Shown here: positions 35,805 through 46,369 of the stretch, one piece after another | Position numbering within the stretch: the stretch's first letter is position 1 | How the letters are laid out: each line of letters starts with the position of its first letter | Source of the DNA: Paraburkholderia flava | GTDB taxonomy: Bacteria; Pseudomonadota; Gammaproteobacteria; Burkholderiales; Burkholderiaceae | NCBI RefSeq assembly: GCF_004359985.1 | Contig: NZ_SMRO01000002.1 | Span: forward strand, 2,060,536-2,124,535 | Direction: 5' to 3' | DNA: 64,000 nucleotides | Notes under the pieces: model-generated | What the model was told of the DNA's origin: nothing | Seen by the model: the letters and a program-made list of their open reading frames with translations, nothing else | Database searches by the model: none | Made by a program: the position numbers and the translations under genes

Positions 35805-37439
35805 TCAGGCGATACGTTCGTCCCCCAGCGTCCCCGCGTGATAGGCCGCGAGAAACGCATCGAAGTTGCCGATCTGCGAGCGCTCGAGCCGCACCTGGCT
35901 GTCGAGCGACGCCGCCGCGATGCGCTCGAACTCCGCCTCGGTCGCGGGCGGCAACGGACTCGTGCGAAACCGCTGCGCATGCGCGCGGCTCTGCTGCATG
36001 CCGAAGTTGAAGAACGCGCCCCGGCTGCCGCTGCCGATCTCGCGCATCGCCTCCAGCACGCGCGCCGACGGCGTCAGCGCCGGATCGTCGAGCTTGCCGC
36101 GCTGTGCTTCCAGCGCGTTCGATACGATGCGATCGCCGCGCTGCCTGTCGAGCAGCCCCGCCGTCTCGCCGATACGCGCGAGCAGGTCGTGTCCCCATTC
36201 GCGCAGCGTGACCGGCTCGCCGCGACGCTGCAAGGCGAGCCCCGGCTGTCGCCCGAGCCGCGCGACGCGGGCGAAATTGAAGCGGTTCTCCTGTTGCGCG
36301 GCATCGCTCAGCAGCGGGCTGTCGTCGAGTGCGCAGAACAGCAGGAACGCATCGAGAAAACGCAGCGTCGCTTCGCCGACGCCATGCGGTGCGAACGGAT
36401 CGATGTCGAGACAGCGCACCTCGACGTATTCAATGCCGCGCCGGCGCAATGCATCGACGGGCCGCTCGCCGCTGCGGGTCACCCGTTTGGGCCGGATCGT
36501 CGAGTAGAACTCGTTCTCGATCTGCAGCAGATTGGTGCTGAGTTGCAGCCACTCGCCGTCGTTCTTCGTGCCGATCGCCTGATACGGCGCATGCGGCTGG
36601 CTCACCGCGCGCGCGAGCCCGTCGATGTAGGCCTGCAGGTTGTCGAGCTGCGGCGTGAGCGCGGCCTGCGCGGAGTTCTGGTAGCCGAGATCGCTCATGC
36701 GCAGGCTCGTCGCATGCGGCAGATACAGCGTCTGTTCGTCGAACGTGTCGAGGCCGTGCGCCTTGCCTTCGACAAAACCCGCGGACAGCGCCGGCGATGC
36801 GCCGAACAGATACATCAGCAGCCAGCTATAGCGGTGGAAGTTGCGGATCAGCGCGATATAGCCTTCCGACTGCAGTGCGCGCGTGCCGTGCTGCGGATAC
36901 GCGTCGTCGTGCAGCACGGCCCACACCGCGTCGGCCAGCGAATAGTTGTAGTGAATCCCGGCGATGCACTGCATCGCCTTGCCGTAGCGCAACGCGAGGC
37001 CGCGCCGGTACACGTGCTTGAGGATGCCGATATTCGACGTGCCGTACCACGCGATCGGAATCCCGCAGTCCGGTTCGAGCGGACAGGGCATCGACTGGCT
37101 CCACGGCATTTCGTCGCCGAGCCGCGCGCACGCGAAGCGATGAATCTCGTCGAGACGCGCGAGCACGTCGGCCGCGTCGTGCTGCGGCGGCGTGATGAAT
37201 TCGAGCAGCGGCTCCGCGTAGTCGGTCGTCACGTACGGATGCGTGAGCGCCGAGCCGAGCTGCCGCGGATGCTGCGTCATCGCGAGCCGGCCCTGCACAT
37301 CCACCCGCAGCGTTTCGCGTTCGATGCCGCACAGCCCTTCGCCGAGCAGCGACAGATGCCCCGCATCGCCCAGCGCCGCGAGCCGGCGCCGGTACGGGGT
37401 CACCGTCCACGCATGTCCCGTCATGTTCTCCAGTGACAT
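35805..37439 (-). CDS. gshA: Glutamate-cysteine ligase-family enzyme, E. coli GshA type
   Basis: The 544-residue protein matches the gamma-proteobacterial GshA family: LLGEGLCGIERETLRVD, YVTTDYAEPLLEFITPP, YGTSNIGILKHVYRRGLA and IGTKNDGEWLQLSTNLLQIE. It joins the gamma-carboxyl of glutamate to an amino group, normally of cysteine. I recall that Burkholderia housekeeping glutathione synthesis uses a different GshA family, so this copy may be a pathway-specific gamma-glutamyl ligase. It is the last gene of the carrier-protein/monooxygenase cluster, 82 bases after the monooxygenase gene. Confidence 0.88.
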   Translation of the reverse strand: MSLENMTGHAWTVTPYRRRLAALGDAGHLSLLGEGLCGIERETLRVDVQGRLAMTQHPRQLGSALTHPYVTTDYAEPLLEFITPPQHDAADVLARLDEIHRFACARLGDEMPWSQSMPCPLEPDCGIPIAWYGTSNIGILKHVYRRGLALRYGKAMQCIAGIHYNYSLADAVWAVLHDDAYPQHGTRALQSEGYIALIRNFHRYSWLLMYLFGASPALSAGFVEGKAHGLDTFDEQTLYLPHATSLRMSDLGYQNSAQAALTPQLDNLQAYIDGLARAVSQPHAPYQAIGTKNDGEWLQLSTNLLQIENEFYSTIRPKRVTRSGERPVDALRRRGIEYVEVRCLDIDPFAPHGVGEATLRFLDAFLLFCALDDSPLLSDAAQQENRFNFARVARLGRQPGLALQRRGEPVTLREWGHDLLARIGETAGLLDRQRGDRIVSNALEAQRGKLDDPALTPSARVLEAMREIGSGSRGAFFNFGMQQSRAHAQRFRTSPLPPATEAEFERIAAASLDSQVRLERSQIGNFDAFLAAYHAGTLGDERIA

Positions 37440-37521
37440 CGCCTGCCTTCCTTTCCTGTCGACATGGTCGCCCGCGCGCTTGCCGCTGCGCGGGTGCCGG
37501 AATCACGATATGGCGAAACGT

Positions 37522-38838
37522 TCAGTCGAGCGGACTCTTCGGCCGTGGCAGGCCGATGTTCTCGCGCAACGTCGAACCCTCGTAGCGGGTGCGGAACAGA
37601 CCGCGCCGCTGCAACTCCGGCACGACCATCGTGACGAAATCGTCATAGCCGTCCGGAACCGTGTAGAACACGACGATGAAGCCGTCGCACGCTTCCGTCA
37701 TCAGCCACTCTTCCATCTGGTCGGCGATCTCGGTGGGCGTGCCGACCATTTCGCCGGTGCCGGATTCCGCTGCGCGCTTCGCGAGTTCGCGCACTGTCAG
37801 CCCTTCGCGACGCGCAAGCGCGGCCCATTCGCGCTGGTTGCCCTGCCCCTGCTCGGTCGCGGGCAACTCGGGCAACGGCTTGTCGGGATCGAACTTCGAC
37901 GCGTCGACGCCAAGGCGAATGGACAGATTCGGGATGTTGCTGTCGACATGCACGAGGTCGTCCATGAAGCGCTTTTTCGCGAGCGCTTCCTCGCGGGTCC
38001 GACCGACGTACACCTGATTGGCCGGCAGGACCTTTACGTGATCCGGGTTGCGTCCCGCAGCCTTTGCGCGCGTTTTCACGTCCTTGTAAAAGCTGCGACC
38101 GGTCTCGATGCTGCGCGCGTTGCCGAACACGAGATCCGCGGTTTCGGCGGCCATCTGGCGCGCTTCCTCAGATGCGCCCGCGAGCGCGATCACCGGCCAT
38201 CCCTGCACCGGCCGCGCGACGTTGAGCGGCCCCTTCACCGAGAAAAACTTGCCCTTGTGATTGAGCGGCCGGATCCGCTCGAGATCGGAGAACACCGCGG
38301 CCTCCTTGTCCATCACAAGCGCATGATCGGACCATCCATCCCACAGCCCGGTCACGACCTTGAAGAACTCGTCGGCGCGCTCGTAGCGTTCGGCATGACG
38401 CAACGCGGTCTCCAGCCCGAAATTGAGTGCCGCTTCCGGGTTGACGGTGGTAACGATATTCCAGCCCGCGCGGCCGTTGCTCAGATGATCCAGCGAAGCA
38501 AAGCGGCGCGCGAGCAGATACGGATCTTCGTAGCTGGTGGTGCCGGTCGCGATCAGCCCGATGTGTTCCGTGCAGGCGGCAATCGCCGACAGCATCACGA
38601 GTGGATCGTATGACGTGATCGTGCCGCTGCGTTTCAGCGCGTTGGGCGGCATCGGCATCACGGCGAGATGATCGGCCGTGAACACGGCATCGAAACAGGC
38701 GTGCTCGAGCTTCTGCGCCAGCGACTTGATGACGGGCCAGCTGAAGTTCGCATTCGTCGGCGCATTCGGGTGCCGCCACCACGCGGTATGCAGGCAGATC
38801 GGGCGCATGAATCCGCCCAGGCAGAGCTGTTTATTCAT
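37522..38838 (-). CDS. FMN-dependent monooxygenase, NtaA/SnaA/DszA luciferase-like family
   Basis: The 438-residue enzyme has FDAVFTADHLAVMP, GTTSYEDPYLLARRFASLDH and LSNGRAGWNIVTTVNPEAALNFG, which define this subfamily. Members use reduced FMN from a separate reductase to oxidise N-, S- or C-centres (nitrilotriacetate, dibenzothiophene sulfone, pristinamycin). ATG 38838 has AGGAAA upstream and the start MNKQLCLGGFMR fits the family. The reductase at 43167-43688 in the same cluster is the likely partner. It could hydroxylate a carrier-bound or gamma-glutamylated intermediate. Confidence 0.9.
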   Translation of the reverse strand: MNKQLCLGGFMRPICLHTAWWRHPNAPTNANFSWPVIKSLAQKLEHACFDAVFTADHLAVMPMPPNALKRSGTITSYDPLVMLSAIAACTEHIGLIATGTTSYEDPYLLARRFASLDHLSNGRAGWNIVTTVNPEAALNFGLETALRHAERYERADEFFKVVTGLWDGWSDHALVMDKEAAVFSDLERIRPLNHKGKFFSVKGPLNVARPVQGWPVIALAGASEEARQMAAETADLVFGNARSIETGRSFYKDVKTRAKAAGRNPDHVKVLPANQVYVGRTREEALAKKRFMDDLVHVDSNIPNLSIRLGVDASKFDPDKPLPELPATEQGQGNQREWAALARREGLTVRELAKRAAESGTGEMVGTPTEIADQMEEWLMTEACDGFIVVFYTVPDGYDDFVTMVVPELQRRGLFRTRYEGSTLRENIGLPRPKSPLD

Positions 38839-46092: not shown

Positions 46093-46096
46093 CGGC

Positions 46097-46369
46097 TTAT
46101 CCGGCGACGGGCACGCCGCCCAGCACGTAGTGGTCGTAGATCGATGAAATCGACCTGATCGAATCAAGCACGAAATCGCCGATCGGAATCTCGATCTTCA
46201 ACGTTCGCTCGATGAAGATCACGAACTGCACGAGCGCCAGGGAATCGAGCAGACTGGCCTCGAGCAGGTCGGTATCGGCCGTCACGCCGACCGGCGCCGC
46301 CGGATCGACCCCTGCGAGAAAACCCTTCACCTCGTCGCTCAAACCGTCAAGACTCATCATCCTCGCCAT
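46097..46369 (-). CDS. Acyl carrier protein of the second cluster
   Basis: The 90-residue protein has the phosphopantetheine site in LLEASLLDSLALVQFVIFIE with Ser43, and helix 3 FIERTLKIEIPIGDFVLDSI. This D-alanyl/aminoacyl-carrier-like pattern (LLDSLALVQF) differs from fatty-acid AcpP (GADSLDTVEL). ATG 46369 (MARMMSLDG) has GGAG seven bases upstream. It is the first gene of the minus-strand cluster. It should tether the pathway intermediate; no adenylating enzyme for it is obvious nearby. Confidence 0.9.
   Translation of the reverse strand: MARMMSLDGLSDEVKGFLAGVDPAAPVGVTADTDLLEASLLDSLALVQFVIFIERTLKIEIPIGDFVLDSIRSISSIYDHYVLGGVPVAG

Follow-up and report, generated by a model that had tools for sequence, protein, structure and literature searches.

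Several described pathways use enzyme types that recur in the locus analyzed here. In gliotoxin thiolation, as given in the available part of PMC6923255, a glutathione S-transferase (GST) is followed by a gamma-glutamylcyclotransferase (GliG and GliK), and an excerpt of PMC4288057 describes the Allium route as comprising a glutathione S-conjugate, deglutamylation, S-oxygenation and a C-S lyase. The iron enzyme PolE desaturates L-isoleucine with O2 and tetrahydrobiopterin (BH4), and its metal motif is defined as HE/DxxH-x(21-23)-E (both from excerpts of PMC12614342). BtrA, B, I, J and K are named in the context of butirosin in the accessible text of PMC11405602. Here we describe a set of nine same-strand genes, with a divergent tenth, from a 64,000-nucleotide stretch of the Paraburkholderia flava contig NZ_SMRO01000002.1 (hereafter the window), which a preliminary description had likened to butirosin side-chain biosynthesis.

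The nine genes are intact, real and co-inherited. Tentatively, and with a probability of about 0.4, we propose that they belong to a pathway for building a small organosulfur compound whose skeleton is that of a branched-chain amino acid; the same pathway breaking down such a compound instead is less likely.

Gene content and co-inheritance

Open reading frames (ORFs), Pfam and NCBIfam agreed with the preliminary description that nine same-strand genes of the types it named occupy positions 35805-46369. Its inventory was sound at the level of families, left as 'unknown' one protein that we identify below as PolE-type (DUF6421), and omitted the divergent GST gene at 46696-47331, which belongs to the gene set. 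The features are as follows:

46097..46369, minus strand: acyl carrier protein (ACP) of about 90 amino acids (PF00550, 28.6 bits; the open frame extends to 46423)
45511..46092, minus strand: gamma-glutamylcyclotransferase-like protein (GGCT; PF13772, 39.5 bits; PF06094, 33 bits; start position approximate)
43738..45042, minus strand: major facilitator superfamily (MFS) transporter (PF07690; TIGR00893/TIGR02332; in 6/9 loci, Burkholderiaceae clusters only)
43167..43706, minus strand: flavin reductase, RutF/HpaC-like (PF01613, 121 bits; in 6/9 loci)
42039..43124, minus strand: putative PolE-type (DUF6421) oxidase homologue, the former 'unknown' (PF19985, 33.4 bits)
40143..41984, minus strand: dihydroxy-acid dehydratase (DHAD) IlvD, additional copy (PRK12448, 1146 bits; TIGR00110, 799 bits)
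38946..40139, minus strand: MetC-like pyridoxal phosphate (PLP) enzyme, cystathionine beta-lyase family, C-S lyase type (TIGR01324, 480 bits)
37522..38841, minus strand: luciferase-like monooxygenase (LLM) dependent on flavin mononucleotide, NtaA/DmoA family (TIGR03860, 524 bits)
35805..37439, minus strand: glutamate-cysteine ligase GshA, additional copy (TIGR01434, 646 bits; Burkholderiaceae clusters only)
46696..47331, plus strand: GST, GstA-like (PF02798, PF00043; GstA model match under its cut-off)

All nine genes had a Pfam family match and seven had NCBIfam matches at E <= 0.001, those of the ACP, MFS transporter and flavin reductase lying under the model cut-offs; GGCT and the PolE homologue had no NCBIfam match at this threshold. 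Gaps between the nine genes were 3-95 bases, the exception being the 468 bases from GGCT to the MFS gene. The GST gene is divergent from, and adjoins, the carrier gene, and had a homologue in all nine loci compared. A scan for promoters and terminators near the divergent start returned nothing above chance, and an Rfam scan of the window returned two tRNAs only.

Scanning named genomes with an alignment of PolE homologues recovered eight loci. Six were cluster loci, from Burkholderia cepacia LK29, B. arboris, B. paludis, Rouxiella badensis, Chimaeribacter californicus and Serratia plymuthica, and two, from metagenome-assembled genomes (uncultured Rhodobacteraceae, Marinibacterium), held a PolE homologue without other cluster genes. 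The nine loci compared throughout are the window, the six named cluster loci and those of genomes G141 and G696; B. arboris MEC_B345 (L014) supplied a tenth locus that, being of the same species as one already counted, was excluded from the counts. GST, ACP, GGCT, the PolE homologue, IlvD, the MetC-like enzyme and the LLM formed a core present in 9/9 loci, covering Burkholderiaceae and three enterobacterial genera. Because searches with PolE or GGCT supplied the loci, these two are present by construction, and it is the other five core genes that form the test. The recurrence of the core in eight other loci indicates that the grouping exceeds chance, and the co-occurrence across genomes on which the preliminary description had staked its case is thereby borne out.

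Beyond the core, GshA, the flavin reductase and the MFS transporter were present in all six Burkholderiaceae loci and in none of the three enterobacterial stretches, of which that from Serratia extends only a short way on one side. A BenE-family transporter and an enolase-superfamily protein occurred in 8/9 loci, the window being the exception, and a cluster LysR in 7/9, with none in the window or LK29 and with the Serratia LysR cut by the end of the stretch. A benzoylformate-decarboxylase-like thiamine diphosphate (ThDP) enzyme was found in two of the three enterobacterial loci. Additionally, a branched-chain aminotransferase-like (BCAT-like) gene was intact in S. plymuthica, with an apparent remnant in Chimaeribacter (L010:8282-8518). 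The distribution of the cluster is patchy: PolE and GGCT marked identical genomes, namely three of 299 in the family (with the window genome among the three; PolE at E 1e-3, GGCT at E 1e-8) and five of the 65 genomes from the genus of G141. We take this genus to be Burkholderia because the loci of G278, G702 and G714 have the same coordinates as the named ones of B. arboris, B. paludis and B. cepacia. Since the two genes are physically close, this shared profile reflects joint gain or loss and is not independent evidence for each.

Amino-acid change is constrained by purifying selection in each of the ten genes, including GST, that were compared, with pN/pS of 0.10-0.59 over 24 gene-locus comparisons against L006, L009 and L011 (six further gene-locus pairs were without a homologue). 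We quote pN/pS since dS in the enterobacterial comparisons was at or near saturation.

The PolE homologue and the proposed organosulfur pathway

The former 'unknown' is, as judged from sequence and predicted fold, a homologue of PolE-type (DUF6421) iron- and pterin-dependent amino-acid oxidases, an identity on which Pfam, the PDB sequence search, the metal motif and the fold agree. Its PF19985 score exceeded the gathering cut-off of 25, and the solved SmPolE and SnPolE were matched at E 1.1e-47 and 1.9e-41, respectively. Of 28 PolE homologues obtained from the best 7,998 candidates scored, 23 were aligned, leaving out the near-duplicate P0002 and the distant P0025-P0028, and the motif, which reads H197-E198-xx-H201-x22-E224 in the window protein, was invariant in all 23. 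The homologue nearest to the window protein among those from named sources, at 88%, was that of P. bryophila. The three SnPolE residues mutated by its depositors (F140, Y157 and Y280) correspond, as mapped by eye, to F132, Y149 and Y271 of the window protein, and all are invariant in the alignment. The predicted structure (mean predicted local distance difference test score, pLDDT, 93) was nearest to SmPolE (9j3g; template-modeling (TM) score 0.86, E 3e-22) and next, distantly, to dipeptidyl peptidase III. No match to DUF6202 (PolF) was seen among the window proteins scanned with Pfam.

The second line of evidence concerns sulfur. LLMs of the other clusters were 83-94% identical to that of the window, and across 399 genomes of the order (up to four candidates scored per genome) no other match exceeded 56%. 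A plasmid search matched 1,320 records, comprising one cluster copy at 93.4% and 1,319 below 60%, the best of those listed being 57.6%. We read the contexts of eight of the 24 non-cluster matches listed (H10-H33; 1,295 more exist), for which the plasmid gene tables are incomplete; three more contexts of LLM relatives (L090-L092), being ORF lists without annotation, entered no count. Sulfur genes stood beside these relatives (approximately 56-58% identical) in 6/8 annotated contexts, a raw frequency uncorrected for background. Specifically, these were a sulfonate ATP-binding cassette (ABC) system in Nostoc, a taurine ABC system and cysteine synthase in Paraburkholderia, cysteine desulfurase, EpsC and CysB in Variovorax, and SfnB on plasmids of Sinorhizobium and, in two similar contexts, Rhizobium leguminosarum. 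Solved relatives of the LLM included YtnJ (301 bits), DszA and dimethyl sulfide monooxygenase.

These contexts, together with membership of the LLM in the NtaA/YtnJ family, are also what a salvage route would lead one to expect. There, an imported or damage-derived S-substituted cysteine would have its amine protected by a gamma-glutamyl rather than an acetyl group, the LLM would cleave its C-S bond and GGCT would deprotect the product, by analogy with the acetylate-cleave-deacetylate scheme of the Bacillus Scm/Ytn pathways outlined in the available portion of PMC12757645. Importer-like transporters and the LysR gene would likewise suit this catabolic direction. We regard salvage as unlikely, however, for it gives no reason to expect a carrier protein, a PolE-type oxidase or an extra dihydroxy-acid dehydratase, GshA is missing from 3/9 loci, and no acetyltransferase or M20 deacetylase was seen.

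The other proteins bearing on sulfur kept their family motifs. In GGCT, the YGS motif and the REGV glutamate, which aligns with human GGCT and which we take to be catalytic, were retained in 9/9 loci. All nine cluster copies additionally have an invariant Cys-Cys pair (EPVCCANI), and distant GGCT relatives (P0049, P0053 and P0055) were found in Litoreibacter and cyanobacteria. The flavin reductase is presumed to be the partner of the LLM. The phosphopantetheine serine of the ACP lies in a D-S-L motif in the window and in DS[LM] in 9/9 loci. Combining a carrier protein with gamma-glutamyl chemistry, as had been suggested previously, stands, given that ACP and GGCT are both in all nine loci. Taken together, GST, GshA, GGCT, the PLP enzyme of C-S lyase type and the LLM contexts favor sulfur chemistry.

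We infer substrates, step order, direction and product as follows. The extra IlvD would feed or handle a branched-chain 2-oxo acid, and the PolE-type oxidase would desaturate a branched amino acid at C3-C4, transamination of which would yield an electrophilic 2-oxo-3-enoic acid. To this the GST would add gamma-glutamylcysteine or glutathione, with the extra GshA raising supply; GGCT would then take off the gamma-glutamyl group as 5-oxoproline, and the MetC-like lyase would cut the cysteine C-S bond such that sulfur stays on the skeleton. The LLM and flavin reductase would oxidize at or next to the sulfur, and the carrier protein might hold one intermediate as a thioester. The branched-chain part of this proposal draws on PolE, IlvD (9/9), the Serratia BCAT-like gene and, weakly, the adjacent branched-chain 2-oxoacid dehydrogenase (BCKDH; 2/9), and the sulfur part on GST, GGCT, the MetC-like enzyme, the LLM and GshA.

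Several observations weigh against it. The window protein is approximately 30% identical to PolE, and at that distance its substrate need not be isoleucine or valine; the role given to IlvD is a guess, and the BCKDH adjacency may be accidental. With respect to sulfur, not all members of the MetC family are lyases, a Cys-Gly dipeptidase was absent from the window genes scanned with Pfam and from the other loci, whose ORF lists were read by eye for this and all other absences of enzyme types, and GshA and the flavin reductase were not in the enterobacterial clusters. Two of the eight LLM contexts (Neorhizobium galegae VafX2, Rhizobium BG4) had no sulfur gene, and the solved LLM relatives also include nitrilotriacetate and EDTA monooxygenases, such that the family, being mixed, does not by itself settle the substrate class. 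The transporters and LysR resemble types that we assume to be common in catabolic clusters; the window MFS transporter resembles organic-acid symporters (HpaX/galactonate-like), under the cut-offs of those families. Finally, no enzyme to load the carrier protein is in sight, and this protein is the least explained part of the set despite its conservation in 9/9 loci.

The presence of GshA without a visible dipeptidase or GshB suggests a more specific version, in which gamma-glutamylcysteine itself would be the sulfur donor of a bacterial thiol-donation pathway; we consider this version improbable. GshA would make the donor, which the GST would couple to the branched-chain skeleton once PolE-desaturated and transaminated, and GGCT would strip the gamma-glutamate in a single step, making GshB and the dipeptidase dispensable. 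The MetC-like lyase would leave the sulfur behind, and the free-standing carrier protein would be involved. If true, bacteria would have their own counterpart of gliotoxin thiolation, with branched thiols or sulfenates of a new family as its products.

The organosulfur proposal as a whole, if correct, would provide a bacterial route drawing small-molecule sulfur from glutathione or gamma-glutamylcysteine, a source reportedly best known in fungi and in plants of the genus Allium, and PolE enzymes would gain a second biosynthetic context. Every enzyme comes from a known family and the combination is new to us; no description of the gene set was found among open-licence PMC papers, in keeping with the earlier view that the co-occurring genes form an undescribed pathway. 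The placement of a PolE homologue in a defined, co-inherited set with glutathione chemistry leaves its substrate and product open to testing.

Additional enzyme copies and neighboring genes

The cluster IlvD, MetC-like enzyme and GshA are additional copies in the genome, and in phylogenetic reconstructions (G696 not included) each formed its own clade: eight IlvD rows with support of 99/99, seven MetC rows with 100/99 and five GshA rows with the weaker 90/92, long branches calling for caution on the outer MetC and GshA rows. IlvD and the MetC-like enzyme exceeded the cut-offs of TIGR00110 (equivalog, 618) and TIGR01324 (366). Twelve IlvD residues were fixed in the eight cluster copies and fixed differently in seven close second copies. 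Three of the cluster-fixed residues, S150, R484 and S520, are within or adjacent to conserved motifs. The MetC-like enzyme kept the PLP lysine and neighboring motifs and differed from enterobacterial MetC at two pocket positions, which read H/Q/T/R and F/W in six aligned cluster copies (the window and five others) and which we take to be the substrate-side residues D116 and Y238 of Escherichia coli MetC.

These features bear on the idea of an antimetabolite, in which PolE would make a beta,gamma-unsaturated branched amino acid that hits branched-chain and sulfur amino-acid metabolism, with IlvD, MetC and GshA as resistant or protective duplicates. In its favor, the extra copies retain those motifs that were examined and are grouped in separate clades, the cluster-fixed IlvD changes include the three at conserved motifs, and AstD offers a precedent for DHAD self-resistance in a biosynthetic cluster (according to an excerpt of PMC11528067). 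The two changed MetC pocket positions, in contrast, suggest that the substrate is a new one and not that of enterobacterial MetC, and R484 is shared by the genome's other IlvD-type copy (38% identical). We consider this explanation quite unlikely.

The third duplicate, GshA, looks by sequence like an ordinary glutamate-cysteine ligase. It exceeded the TIGR01434 equivalog cut-off of 393, a second copy in the window genome was 57% identical, and its residues were nearly the same as those of second copies in the three stretches compared. The fetched stretches around all three enterobacterial clusters held no GshA, and each of these genomes had one match elsewhere, at 44-47% identity. We therefore rejected, as the best reading, a new carrier-loading role for GshA, given its resemblance to second copies and its absence from 3/3 enterobacterial stretches.

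The same results bear on the butirosin-like logic proposed in the preliminary description, whereby GshA would cap the amine of a carrier-bound amino acid with a protective gamma-glutamyl group, the LLM would oxidize the amino acid and GGCT would remove the cap. The carrier, GGCT and LLM are indeed in 9/9 loci, with GshA and the flavin reductase in 6/9. This logic nevertheless has no role for GST, PolE or IlvD, its ligase is very similar to the second copies over the three stretches compared and is missing from the enterobacterial stretches, and neither an ATP-grasp ligase nor a PLP decarboxylase nor an acyltransferase of BtrH type came up when window genes were scanned with Pfam or was seen in the other loci. 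The PLP enzymes of the window are of the MetC family and an aminotransferase, and its sole acyltransferase is the BCKDH E2. On our assumption that BtrJ is an ATP-grasp ligase that loads the carrier, BtrK a PLP decarboxylase and BtrH an acyltransferase, no gene of these three types was seen, and the specific butirosin steps found no support. We consider this reading very unlikely; the alternative raised alongside it, which invoked a sulfur amino acid as product or S-alkyl-cysteine chemistry, is the better fit.

Downstream of the cluster and on the same strand were two possible accessory features, identified by Pfam:

30517..35596, minus strand: BCKDH E1a, E1b, E2 and E3
29278..30513, minus strand: PLP aminotransferase with MocR-type catalytic domain (PF00155), 3 bases downstream of E3

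Within the fetched stretches the BCKDH operon adjoined the cluster in only 2/9 loci (the window and B. cepacia LK29), ruling it out as a core member, and no homologue of the aminotransferase lay behind E3 in the B. cepacia stretch (L064). A second MFS transporter (47410-48963) lies directly past the GST gene, and glycosyltransferase or exopolysaccharide-type genes flank the cluster on both sides (6959-29167, by eye; 51317-52621, the gene at 51317 by Pfam).

The enolase-superfamily (mandelate-racemase-like) protein of L009 (7028-8185), with homologues in the eight cluster loci noted above, has neither the second KxK/KxR residue nor a second-base histidine when aligned with 3bjs. We take these positions to have the roles usual in the superfamily, and the protein may therefore differ from typical acid-sugar dehydratases. 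Both it and the ThDP protein of L009 fell under every NCBIfam cut-off among the matches shown.

The distant DUF6421 loci (L012, L013, L015-L017) were rejected as relatives of the cluster, as none of the five held other core genes (L012 is short on one side, and L016 matches LLM and BCAT only weakly, at 24-28%). On Pseudoalteromonas and Pantoea plasmids (L016:1420-16135, L017:7735-10756), DUF6421 genes adjoin ATP-grasp proteins, that of L016 having as additional neighbors an LLM, an oxidoreductase and a BCAT. Just upstream of both genes are small 'hypothetical' proteins that, by eye, are mutually similar.

Comparison with described pathways

The window protein shares with PolE of the polyoxin pathway the Pfam family, fold, metal motif and three conserved positions, and differs from it in sequence, given the low identity, and in gene company. 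With the pathway to the 4-amino-2-hydroxybutyrate (AHBA) side chain of butirosin (BtrI/J/K/O/V/H/G), the cluster has in common a small carrier, a luciferase-like monooxygenase with its reductase and a cyclotransferase; unlike that pathway, it has an ordinary-looking GshA in only 6/9 loci, and the ligase, decarboxylase and acyltransferase types disagree.

The Bacillus Scm/Ytn S-alkylcysteine pathways resemble the cluster in their NtaA/YtnJ-family flavin monooxygenase and sulfur chemistry. The cluster differs in having ACP, PolE and IlvD, and neither an N-acetyltransferase nor an M20 deacetylase of the Scm/Ytn type was found among the window genes scanned with Pfam or in the other loci. The likeness to the Allium S-alk(en)yl-cysteine sulfoxide pathway is one of logic only; that pathway employs plant enzymes and deglutamylation by transpeptidases, and is not known to involve an ACP, PolE or IlvD.

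In comparison with gliotoxin thiolation, the cluster has no visible nonribosomal peptide synthetase or dipeptidase (the latter presumably represented by GliJ, which we take to be the Cys-Gly dipeptidase of that pathway), its PLP enzyme is of the MetC family, and it adds GshA, PolE, IlvD, ACP and LLM. What the two share is the pairing of a GST and a GGCT, present in all nine cluster loci; the cluster additionally has a PLP enzyme that, by analogy, could act as a C-S lyase.

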